A DNA stretch of 64,000 nucleotides from contig JAIXMO010000031.1 in NCBI GenBank assembly GCA_025677825.1, positions 300,341-364,340 on the forward strand. The letters are read 5' to 3'. The stretch is from Helicostylum pulchrum (Eukaryota > Mucoromycota > Mucoromycetes > Mucorales > Mucoraceae). A model generated the notes under the pieces. It had not been told where the DNA came from. It saw nothing but the letters and a program-made list of their open reading frames with translations, and made no database searches. Made by a program: the position numbers and the translations under genes. This document shows, in pieces, positions 37,719 to 42,840 of this stretch (within the stretch, counting starts at the first letter, position 1; every line of letters starts with the position of its first letter).

Positions 37719-39759
37719 TTATATTGACGAAGCAGAAGTAGTTTTATGATGTACTTTAAGAGTTTCATCCTCATCCTCATCATCCGAATCTTGTAATAGC
37801 GGTACATGACCTTCATTAGACACGACTGTATCCATTTTTTGCATATAAGCGATCAATAACATGGACCCAATAAACAAAACAATCAAAACTGCACCTGTTG
37901 TAAACCCCTTATCTATTTTTTTTTAAAAAAATGATATGTCAATGCATCATTTTGAAAAATGCATATAAAAATACTTACGGTAATAAGGAGCGTCTGTCAC
38001 AGGCCATAATACAAGCGGAACCCATACCCACATCAATGACGAAAAAGTATTCATAATAGCAATAGCCATAGCTCTTATTTCGCCATTGGTTGAAATAACT
38101 TCACTAGCCCAAGTCATAACAATCTAAAAGCATTCTAAAATAAGTACGACAGTCTTGTTTTAAAAATTATTTATATACATACCGAAGTAAGAGAACCGAG
38201 ACCAGCATGCGTTAATAAGAAACCAATGTATAGAATTGGAAACGGTTGTACAAAAGCAGATAAAAGACTGGCTGAAATTTTAGTCTCTGTTTAATGCATG
38301 AAAAAGTATTATTATTTTTTACCTCATTCCTACCAGTCCAATCAAGGCAGGAATTACAGTACACCTATTGTATAAGGTTTAATTTAAGGTTGGCATAGAT
38401 TTAAAAAAAAAAAAGACAACTTACCACACCCGAGTACGGTATTTATCACTAAGGAACCCATTACATAGTCCAAATATCATTGTAATAATTGTGTCTGGCT
38501 ACAATAATAATAGAATTAATTTATACTTGTAAAAAATAAAATAAAATAGATATAATATTTTACTGTAGTTAATAGATTCGCTGTGACAGCATCAAAATCT
38601 AACTTCTTTGCTACAATTCCCAGCACATGGGCTGCACCTAACGATATATGAATTGAAGCCCAACCAAATATAAAAGGATACAGGTACTTATTGCTCGCTA
38701 AACTTTTAATTTTATTCCATCGATTACTACTTGAAACCCGTTTGCCTTCTACCGAATGATCAATATTTAATCTGTCAATTGCAATCGCTTTTTCGGATTT
38801 ATCTAACCAAGTAGTATTATGTGGATAATCAGGTAAAAAATGGTATCCGAGTACTGCTAAAATGATTGTTATACATGCATCAAACATAAACATCCAGCGC
38901 CACCTATTTGTTCTTTTTTTTTAATAGCGAAAAAAAAAGAGGGAACAAAAAAAAACTTACCCACTAATACCAAATATACCATCCATCATTTTTAACATGA
39001 CGGCTTGTATTACGCCACTTAACCCGCTTCCAAAGGATCCACAAATAGTTATTAAAGCGAGTCGTTTACCTAATTCTCTCTTTGTGTACCAAGTACCTGC
39101 CAAGAATATAATCTTAAATATGTATAAGTGATTTTAAATAAAAAAAAATGAAATAAAAAAATGATCCTTACACCAGGATAAAAGCCAGCTTCAGCCAATC
39201 CAAGTAAAAATCTTATCACATACACACCTTGTACAGATTGAACACACGCCATAGATACTGTCAATATACACCAAATGATTTCCAAAGCAGGTAAGTATAG
39301 AGACGGGCGCATATTAGATAATAATATATTGGAAGGTATCTGCATACTTATAATAATAAAAAAGTCAATACTCCCCCTTTTTTCTTTATATATTACGTGT
39401 ATTTCTTTTATTTTACGTTAAATATCCAATTGTAAATAATACACCCATCCAATTATATTGTAACCCAGTTATATTTAATTCTTCTTCCATACCACTAATA
39501 AAAGCACTTCCTAATATAAACTCTTTTTAAGAAAAAAGAAAAAAAAAGAATGTTTGAAAAAGGGTTTACCTAGGTTGGCGTTATCTAAAGACTTTACCAA
39601 ATTGCCAAACATGGCGAATACAAGTAACCGTTTATCTAAACGGTGTACGAGTTCAATTTCTTCTATTCGGTTTCGCTGTTTTGGTTCGTTTGTGTCCGAC
39701 GTCAATGACTGTAACTCGATTGTTTGATGTAAGCCATCTTGTTCCAAAACTGTATTCAT
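37719..39759 (-). CDS. MFS anion:cation-symporter-type permease (allantoate/pantothenate-like)
   Basis: Ten exons (39759-39570, 39510-39417, 39346-39172, 39112-38961, 38903-38564, 38498-38425, 38364-38334, 38284-38183, 38123-37979, 37912-37719) sum to 498 residues in frame; the junction at 38334/38284 is the least certain. About 12 membrane segments are expected. Family marks are LDNANLGSAFISGMEEEL after the first helix, MQIPSNILL, RFLLGLAEAGFYPG and WYTKRELGKRLAL, the usual ACS-family (Dal5/Fen2/Tna1-like) signatures, and FLPDYPHNTTWLDKSEKAI after helix 6. The N-terminus is cytosolic and polar, and the C-terminal tail is acidic (QDSDDEDEDETLKV). Such permeases take up carboxylates, vitamins or ureides; the substrate cannot be read. 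Confidence 0.85.
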
Positions 39760-40758
39760 TTTTTTTACTAATAAAAAACAAGAGAAAAGAGAGGAAATGA
39801 TAAAAAGCGTATTATAAAGAAAGGGGTGGAGAGTGAATAAGAGGGAGAGAGGGGCTACAATTATACATATAAAAAAAGCCCTAGAATAGAAGGAAGAGTG
39901 GGATGTAAGCCACGTTTGATTCCAATATTGGATTTGGGAACGTTTACCGTATTTTTCAGGGGCTCAGTTTTGAAACCCTTCTTTTAAGACTTTATTAAAA
40001 GGTAAAGAGTTTTTTTTCATGCATGAAAGTAAAACAGTATCCAGGTTTGGATTAGACTCCTTTTTTTTTTCAGGGATTAAAGGTACACGCTATACACTTT
40101 TACAAAAAAAAAAAAAAAAATAGGCAGTCCAGTGTAATGATCTTCGAGCCTCAAAAGAAACAACCGTATCCGTTACGGCGATCTAAAAAATAATTCCGTG
40201 AGTAGTCTTAATGGCAGATTAAACCCAAAGCATACAGACTAATGGAAGAAAGCTATTAGGAGAGGATTCACCCTCTAGCAACTAATAATCTTTTAGGAAC
40301 TTTTCCGCGACCGAACAAAGCATAGTAATAAAAAAATACTCCCAGAGTGATTAATAAACTCTGTATCGAATTACAAAATGCTTTATACGTAGTAAAATAT
40401 TAAAGAGCTCTTTTTCCAACGTAATCTGTTTTATGACTAACAACAACAAAAAAAAAAAAAGCCCATGTTGTTATAAGAAAGAAATGCTTCAAAAAGTACA
40501 TATACGGTGCAACCTTTTTAAGATTAAATATGGTTGCTCCGAATGAAACCAAATAAAAATTAAAGATTCAGGTTTTTCCATGAAATAAACAAATACAGAT
40601 GAGATTATCGTTTTTTGTTGACATTTAAATCACCCCGCATTTTTTTTTGACATAAACAAATCAAGCAAACAACGATATAAGTTGCTTTTTCTTTCTTTCC
40701 TTCCTTCTTCTTCTTTAAGATACTTTCTTTAAAATAATAATAATAATAGTAATAAAAC
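39760..40758. promoter_or_regulatory. Divergent promoter region (MFS permease / zinc-knuckle gene)
   Basis: One kilobase without any coding frame. It has poly-A runs (A17 near 40103-40120) and a CT-rich leader tract (CTTTTTCTTTCTTTCCTTCC, about 40685-40720) directly before the zinc-knuckle ATG, a common feature of fungal promoters. No specific operator is recognised. Confidence 0.45.
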
Positions 40759-41006
40759 ATGCCTTCAATGGTTAAACCAGTTAATTTAACAGGAGGTCAA
40801 TGGTACGAAATGTTTTATTAATAACAACAAAAAAAGCTTATTTTTAACTAAAGGGACCTTTTTTATTTTCTTTGTTATAGCGATCACTGTGGACAGGTAC
40901 GTAAAATGGTATAATTTATTTTATGAATAAAACAAGTATACTAACTTTTATACTTTAATAGTATGGGCATGACCGAAAAACATGTAGTCTTTTAAAATCA
41001 AAATGA
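40759..41006 (+). CDS. 34-residue CCHC zinc-knuckle protein (three tiny exons)
   Basis: Three exons, 40759-40802 (44 nt), 40881-40896 (16 nt) and 40962-41006 (45 nt), are bounded by canonical GT...AG introns of 78 and 64-65 nt and sum to 105 nt. The product starts MPSMVKPVNLTGGQ and continues CDHCGQYGHDRKTCSLLKSK. The motif C-x2-C-x4-H-x4-C is a perfect CCHC zinc knuckle. Unspliced reading gives only short frames, so the gene is easily missed. A CT-rich leader and an A-rich start context support transcription. The zinc-knuckle fold usually binds single-stranded nucleic acid or mediates protein contacts. The whole protein is little more than the knuckle, so it may act as a small RNA-binding or adaptor peptide. 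The splice model fits exactly, but there is no expression evidence. Confidence 0.7.
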
Positions 41007-41140
41007 TGTACAACTTACCACAAAAACTATCTCTCTAGTTAGTTAGTCATATATATATATACCCTGCCTCTTAAAGAAAATAAAAATCCCTTTTTTAAAT
41101 GTAAAAAGTCCCTTTTATTTAATTTTTGTGGGGTTCTTTA

Positions 41141-42840
41141 TTAAACTAGCTCCATATAACGTTTCAGTTCATAATCGGTTACAGCATTTTGCCATAAGAT
41201 CCATTCATGTCTTCTAGTACTGACATAATGATCAATAAACTCATTACCTAATACTTTACGAGCAACAGAATCTTTAGCGTCCATAACATTGGTAGCTTCT
41301 TGTAACGTACGAGACAACCTTTCATTATTTGTTACATCAACAGCAGAGTTACTAGGTCCCGAAGGAAGAGTTTGTTTTGTTTGGATCCCCCAGTATCCAC
41401 ATTTAAGTACAGCTGCCAAAGCTAAATGAGGATTAATATCCGCTCCCGATACTCTCTATATATACGTATATATAAAAAACAAACTGTCATTAGCTTCTAG
41501 CATCAGTGCACAACCCAATAATAAAAATCACACGCTTTGTTTTCATTCCTTCACAAAATAAAAATAAAAACAAACATACCATTTCCAATCGCGTTGCACT
41601 AGCAGAGGTAGAAGGAGGTGCAATCACACGTACTGCGCTGTGACGCGAATCAATACCCCATGAAACACTTACAGGAGCCCAGTAATTTTCCACTAGTCTT
41701 TTGTAGCTGCATTTACAAATAAATTAAAAAAAAGGGTAAATAAACAACAACAATTTACCTGTTAATAGTCGGAGCTAAAATAGCCAAAATACTAGGTAAA
41801 CCACGCAACACACCAGCTAAAAAACATTGCATATTTTTAGTCATATTAGGTACATCACTTGGTTCACCCACCGCAAATAAATTATCCCCGTTTGAATCCT
41901 TTAAACTGAAATGCATATGACCAGAACAACCTGGTTGATCACCATAAGGCTTTGCCATAAAAGATGGCATCACATTATGCTTTAAACCAATTTGTTTCAT
42001 GGATGTTTTAAATAACGTAGCACGATCACCTATTTCTTTAGCTTCTTGATACAGCAATGCTGCTTCAAATACACCAGGTCCAGTTTCCGTATGCCAACTT
42101 TCAATATCTACCTTGAATTCTTTTAACCAGTCAAACGCATTATAATAAAAGTCTTGATTTTGTAACGGACGTAATACAGAGTAACCGCACATACCCAACG
42201 TGAGTGGTTGTAATTGGCTATGTCCCTTTTCCGCAAGACTTTCGGTCGTTTCTACAAGTAAAGAAATAAGAAAAAGATCAGTTGATTTTATACAAAAAAC
42301 GCGTGCAGATCTTACCTTTAAAACAAAAAAATTCAAATTCCATCCCACAATATGCAGTGATTCCTAACTCTGCAAACTCATCTACAGCACTTTGCAATAC
42401 ATTTCTAGGGCAACAATAAAGTGGTTTACCTGTTGTTGGATGAAACAAGCTTACAAAAAAGAATGGAATATTATCTTCCCACGGGATACGACGATAAGAA
42501 GATAAATCGATTTTGGCTACTAGGTCAAAGTATTGACAATCTTTACCAGCGAATTCCATTGGCGTTATATAATTCTTATCTTGAATATCCCAGCCAAATA
42601 TAACAGAGCAAAAACCTGGGGAATAAGTAGTGTTTAGTAAAACAAAATAAAATAAAATAAAAAAGCGCGTGTAAATATATTATTACCAAAACCACTTTTT
42701 GCTACTTGCAGGAATTTCTCCTTGTGGATAATTTTGCCCCGTAATAGACCGTCGATGTCTACTGCCGCTACTTTAATACGACTATCATTAGCTAACAAAT
42801 CCGCCAAGTTATCAAGTGTAAGTATAGTTTCTTGTGTCAT
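41141..42840 (-). CDS. Glutamine-synthetase-family enzyme (GSI-like, FluG/gamma-glutamyl ligase type)
   Basis: Five exons (42840-42687, 42615-42316, 42251-41759, 41706-41580, 41455-41141) give 462 residues. Motifs include VAAVDIDGLLRGKII at the N-terminus, the metal-binding strand GMEFEFFCF, a TGPGVFEAAL element, the ATP/Glu-site element HNVMPSFMAKPYGDQPGCSG HMHFSL, and SSWGIDSRHSAVRVIAPP with the substrate Arg. The layout is that of type I glutamine synthetase-like enzymes, as in the C-terminal half of fungal FluG and in bacterial gamma-glutamylpolyamine synthetases, rather than the eukaryotic type II enzyme that makes bulk glutamine. It is probably a cytosolic ligase joining glutamate to an amine. 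The amine partner is unknown. Confidence 0.8.

Follow-up and report, generated by a model that had tools for sequence, protein, structure and literature searches.

A predicted split gene for a miniature single-zinc-knuckle protein in Helicostylum pulchrum and its relatives in other early-diverging fungi

Zinc knuckles of the CCHC type, as collected in the domains of Pfam, usually sit in larger or multi-knuckle proteins. The knuckles of retroviral nucleocapsids belong to Gag, often as a pair, and CNBP/Gis2, Air1/2, Slu7 and Lin28, which carry CCHC knuckles of which several act on single-stranded nucleic acid, are larger proteins with several knuckles or other domains. Our study concerns a predicted gene for a much smaller protein, located in a 64,000-nt stretch of the genome of Helicostylum pulchrum (contig JAIXMO010000031.1, positions 300,341 to 364,340), hereafter called the window. 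At window positions 40759-41006 of the + strand, three joined exons translate to MPSMVKPVNLTGGQCDHCGQYGHDRKTCSLLKSK, a protein of 34 residues. The gene belongs to a family whose six H. pulchrum members share the first intron, and between the window copy and its five paralogues replacement changes are fewer per site than synonymous ones. The reading that we favour, with a probability of roughly 0.6, is that the locus is a protein-coding gene in a conserved family of stand-alone single-knuckle miniature proteins, most likely binding zinc and then single-stranded RNA or DNA.

The window protein shares the spacing C-x2-C-x4-H-x4-C, with glycine after the second cysteine and before the histidine, with the Pfam domains PF00098 (zf-CCHC), PF14392 (zf-CCHC_4) and PF16588 (zf-C2H2_10), but differs from them in that one knuckle is nearly the entire protein. 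Retroviral nucleocapsid knuckles (HIV-1 NCp7 and MMTV NC finger 1) have the same ligand spacing, a similar size of the folded unit and a like predicted fold, although the scores are weak and there is little likeness beyond the knuckle. One-domain zinc-finger micro-proteins of Haloferax volcanii (PMC6562870) resemble the window protein in being stand-alone and shorter than 70 residues; they are set apart as archaeal proteins with two C(P)XCG motifs rather than CCHC. The authors of PMC6562870 knew of only a single gene for a putative zinc-finger micro-protein that had been studied earlier in any species. Brz of Halobacterium (PMC2253796) is also described as a small zinc-finger protein, and is set apart by its archaeal origin and a C3H motif in place of CCHC.

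Gene structure and paralogues in Helicostylum pulchrum

Exons of 44, 16 and 45 nt, with GT-AG at both introns, were read from the window sequence. An earlier note on this DNA had proposed the same coordinates, exon sizes, intron borders and peptide, and re-reading bore it out in each of these respects. The peptide consists of an arm (VKPxNLxGGQ), one CCHC knuckle and a leucine/lysine tail (SLLKSK), and the locus is laid out as follows.

40684..40730, + strand: pyrimidine-rich stretch ahead of the start codon, by direct reading; possibly a promoter or 5' leader
40759..40802, + strand: exon 1, 44 nt, with the ATG at 40759; MPSMVKPVNLTGGQ plus two bases of the first cysteine codon
40803..40880, + strand: intron 1, 78 nt, GT-AG, phase 2; cuts the first zinc-ligand codon (TG/C)
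40881..40896, + strand: exon 2, a micro-exon of 16 nt; remainder of the cysteine codon, then DHCGQ
40897..40961, + strand: intron 2, 65 nt, GT-AG, phase 0
40962..41006, + strand: exon 3, 45 nt; YGHDRKTCSLLKSK plus the stop TGA
40801..40985, + strand: CCHC zinc knuckle CDHCGQYGHDRKTC, broken by both introns
41079..41084, + strand: AATAAA, a possible polyadenylation signal

Intron 2 contains a branch-like TACTAAC at 40939-40945, the A of which precedes the 3' splice site by 17 nt. Stops account for seven of the 10 in-frame codons ahead of the ATG, and unspliced RNA would read GGQWYEMFY-stop. That the locus is a fragment of a larger gene was rejected on these upstream stops, on the stop after SLLKSK and on the lack of any genome match beyond the six loci of the family.

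An exon-level search of the genome (32.2 Mb, 168 contigs) revealed, besides the window copy, at least five paralogues of 32-61 residues: C129 (32 residues), C105 (53, or 31 if started from an inner methionine), C100 (60), C84 (61) and C163 (52), lengths that depend on start codons assigned by choice, with further upstream exons possible for all five. The six genes lie on six contigs; no seventh family member was found by further genome queries, and the locus counts are lower bounds. In all six, the codon of the first cysteine is split by a phase-2 intron (TG/C or TG/T), and in four of them the donor gives GGQW-stop when unspliced. The five paralogues have a second exon of 55 nt including the stop and are without intron 2, whereas the window copy has one extra intron and two additional residues.

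When the window copy was compared with the five paralogues over 27 core codons, the proportion of synonymous differences (pS, 0.54-0.83) exceeded that of replacement differences (pN, 0.26-0.36) in every case, these being distant comparisons in which synonymous sites are near saturation. The core proteins of C129 and C105 are identical, with 13 changes counted as synonymous and one as replacement under path averaging. Once the numbers of sites are allowed for, most core changes are synonymous.

The description of the gene as hidden also fits this copy, as the 34-residue window protein was returned by none of three protein searches, though many relatives are annotated. Two of the six copies were found under the species name in these searches (P0002 and P0003, corresponding to C84 and C100), both marked partial, in a protein set that was clustered at 90% and may conceal further H. 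pulchrum copies. PF00098 gave 48 matches on the whole genome, among which C84 (16.9 bits) was the sole family copy and the window copy was absent.

Both neighbours of the gene lie on the minus strand. On the left are MFS-transporter-like exons at 38516-38920 (MFS_1 at 28.4 bits, below the cut-off of 33.4), and on the right, at ~41141-42840, a glutamine-synthetase-like gene faces the tail of the miniature gene, with three open pieces matching Gln-synt_C.

Relatives in other fungi

Two profile searches (A2 and A3) together found 54 species-labelled family proteins in 27 genera of Mucorales and Umbelopsis. Lineage was checked for six species, five Mucorales in four families and one member of Umbelopsidales; the remaining species are given the order to which we take them to belong. 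P0002 and P0003 are included in the 54 and were themselves rows of the A2 query. Profile A2 matched 53 proteins at E ≤1 (49 species-labelled and four others), and profile A3 matched 103 at E ≤10, of which 53 species-labelled proteins scored 1.3e-10 or better and P0050 scored 1.6e-9. The remainder were metagenomic and weak matches, including P0062 (E 0.027) and a protein of Trifolium (E 2.7). Conservation of the peptide in related fungi, the absence of which the earlier note had named as grounds for refutation, was found, and extends to a relative of the same length in Rhizomucor.

The family core, [IVPL]x3[ND][LTMV]x[GHYQ][GD]QCx[WH]CGxYGHx4Cx[LYF]L, lies near the C-terminus, and the window peptide fits it. 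Across 57 aligned cores (53 species-labelled proteins and four H. pulchrum sequences, leaving out P0062, P0050 and P0052-P0054), the residues Q, C, C, G, Y, G, H, C and L, zinc ligands included, were invariant. The residue before the second cysteine was tryptophan in 53 and histidine in four. Beyond the knuckle, the arm KP.NL.GGQ and a C-terminal LL are also conserved. Scored against a profile of the 53 rows outside the HCGQ class described below, the window peptide reached 53.5 bits, compared with 11.7 or less for 500 shuffles.

The window peptide carries QCxHCGQ, the mark of this class, which has four relatives in four other genera and three other families. These are P0039 of Rhizomucor pusillus (34 residues, MAPPVKPLNLSGGQCDHCGQYGHTRKSCSLLRSK), P0056 of Phascolomyces articulosus (50 residues), P0057 of Halteromyces radiatus (49 residues, with a longer tail) and P0062 of Syncephalastrum racemosum (120 residues, matched by profile A3 alone). 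A profile of the class (A4) matched five proteins, of which three had gone into the profile itself, and the four HCGQ rows cluster with a local support of 0.989 over 28 columns.

Intron positions outside H. pulchrum were deduced from read-through protein models. P0062 tracks the family up to CNHCGQ and then reads VVHSC..., departing exactly at the position of window intron 2 with a V (GTN), as would be expected if its gene model had missed a GT-starting intron at this site. An intron after CGQ is present in the window gene and implied in P0062. At the place of intron 1, the proteins P0052 and P0054 read ...GQW, as unspliced copies would. As to the introns, whose lack of conservation the earlier note had likewise named as refuting, intron 1 is common to the six H. 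pulchrum genes, and intron 2 is implied at the same place in Syncephalastrum from a protein model. The note's reading is supported by these results rather than refuted. P0050, which is close to P0017 of Umbelopsis vinacea, has an apparent read-through intron in the second rather than the first cysteine codon, judging by its protein, and this pattern suggests an intron shift or an independent gain inside the same knuckle.

The proposal that the window protein is one of the smallest zinc-knuckle proteins is plausible, but it is not unique in this, as a paralogue of 32 residues (C129) and P0013 of Mucor plumbeus, also of 32 residues, are smaller. A scan of prokaryote genomes gave 23 pattern matches and no relative. 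A scan of viral contigs gave 71 pattern matches with just two relatives, both a phage-like protein of ~300 residues with two knuckles in a different context. The two loci (L012:2983-3891 and L013:2983-3882) are on IMG/VR contigs of 147 and 175 kb, and the knuckles read CQHCGQYGHNRRGC and CGFCG.HGHNARTC. The best PHROG match of this protein had an E value of 0.0032, and zf-CCHC_6 fell slightly below cut-off for the L012 protein.

Function and alternative explanations

Precomputed Pfam annotation lists no domain for any species-labelled relative, and the window peptide scored below every curated Pfam cut-off (zf-CCHC_4, 12.6 of 27 bits). PF00098 did not match it at E ≤10, and P0039 reached 16.7 of the 20.8 bits of that domain; NCBIfam yielded nothing beyond scattered weak matches for 24 members. 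An AlphaFold2 model of P0039 had a mean pLDDT of 83.8, and Foldseek returned 27 matches to it, mostly CCHC knuckles judging by their titles, among them the knuckle of CLIP-170 bound to a CAP-Gly domain and entries for Slu7 and Lin28. Profile and fold searches of the PDB gave no significant match, the best sequence matches being to Gag/nucleocapsid knuckles, at weak scores (E 0.01 or worse) and with the knuckle at their centre. Among the open-licence papers listed by literature searches, none dealt with the family, and PMC12852828 and PMC8778642 had no bearing on it. The name 'transcription factor' on annotated relatives is a database label only, and a test behind the label was not found.

Under the favoured reading, two small introns would be removed to give the 34-residue protein, which would fold round one zinc ion. 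Zinc binding by the window peptide is most likely because the four ligands are invariant, together with the Gly, Tyr and Gly-His around them. The zinc-loaded peptide would then bind single-stranded RNA or DNA, either alone or as the small subunit of a larger complex, which would hold the conserved arm and tail. Nucleic-acid binding is proposed by analogy with other CCHC knuckles, and the phrase 'stand-alone nucleic-acid-binding peptide', used in the earlier note, is probably the best description of the protein. That the arm and the LL[KR] tail are conserved as well hints at a second contact, possibly to a protein or to the nucleic-acid backbone.

The conservation of the arm and of the C-terminal LL also favours another explanation, in which a real miniature protein acts mainly by protein contacts, with knuckle, arm and tail docking on a larger partner and modulating it; the partner might be another zinc-knuckle protein or a complex active in splicing, RNA decay or transcription. 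The Foldseek match to the CLIP-170 knuckle with its CAP-Gly domain points in the same direction, as does PMC6003976, in which microProteins are described as interference modules. However, genome searches scored nothing outside the six loci, and since each of these is short in its simplest model, a parent protein that the peptide might mimic is not apparent; we regard this explanation as possible, if somewhat unlikely. A broader proposal is that the genes are a Mucoralean lineage-specific set of single-knuckle proteins, six of them in H. pulchrum and among the smallest complete ones, and that a general system of RNA-binding peptides is switched on and off by splicing; this is doubtful. Without splicing the RNA would not code for a knuckle, because the intron splits the codon of the first ligand. 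Regulation by splicing is nevertheless speculation, because the donor consensus GTAA alone yields TGG TAA.

That Gag/nucleocapsid knuckles are the best PDB sequence matches is consistent with a peptide that buffers zinc, or one that arose by domestication of a Gag knuckle from a retroelement, without a specific nucleic-acid target today. We consider this improbable, as those matches are weak and centre on the knuckle, and as the common intron, the spread over six contigs and the span of the family from Umbelopsis to Mucor all count against it. Moreover, the G, Y and GH between the ligands, invariant in 57/57 cores, are unneeded for mere zinc storage.

The frequency with which such a knuckle arises by chance was estimated on both strands of the window, taking products of ≤60 residues that contain the pattern C-x2-C-x4-H-x4-C and allowing one or two introns, each 45-110 nt long. 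The window knuckle was the sole core recovered, in two products starting from ATG 1 and ATG 4 of the peptide. In first-order Markov copies of the window, at least one core was seen in 8/707 samples with consensus-like donors, a pattern picked after the sequence was seen, and in 9/175 samples with any GT donor. The form C..CG..GH....C was absent among all cores of these copies, and a pilot run on 22 kb gave cores in 0/12 copies. Under free splicing the motif by itself would be expected by chance in about 1-5% of such windows and would alone be a modest finding; the existence of relatives places the window knuckle far beyond chance. Although the gene structure is a prediction from DNA, a motif made splice-able by chance or a decaying copy without function is very improbable, the former being rejected on the Markov rates and on the relatives (five paralogues with the same intron and four of the same class in other genera), and the latter on the intact frame, pS > pN in all five paralogue comparisons and the 34-residue Rhizomucor protein.

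Significance for annotation and knuckle biology

In summary, our study describes a conserved family of complete proteins scarcely larger than one zinc knuckle, of which genes of the window type are missed by gene finders because their exons are very small. In early-diverging fungi, a short exon 1 ending in GGQ plus TG with an intron in the first cysteine codon, and a last exon that stops shortly after LL[KR], offer cues for annotation. On the reading favoured here, the members of the family would be minimal natural models of target finding by a single knuckle.
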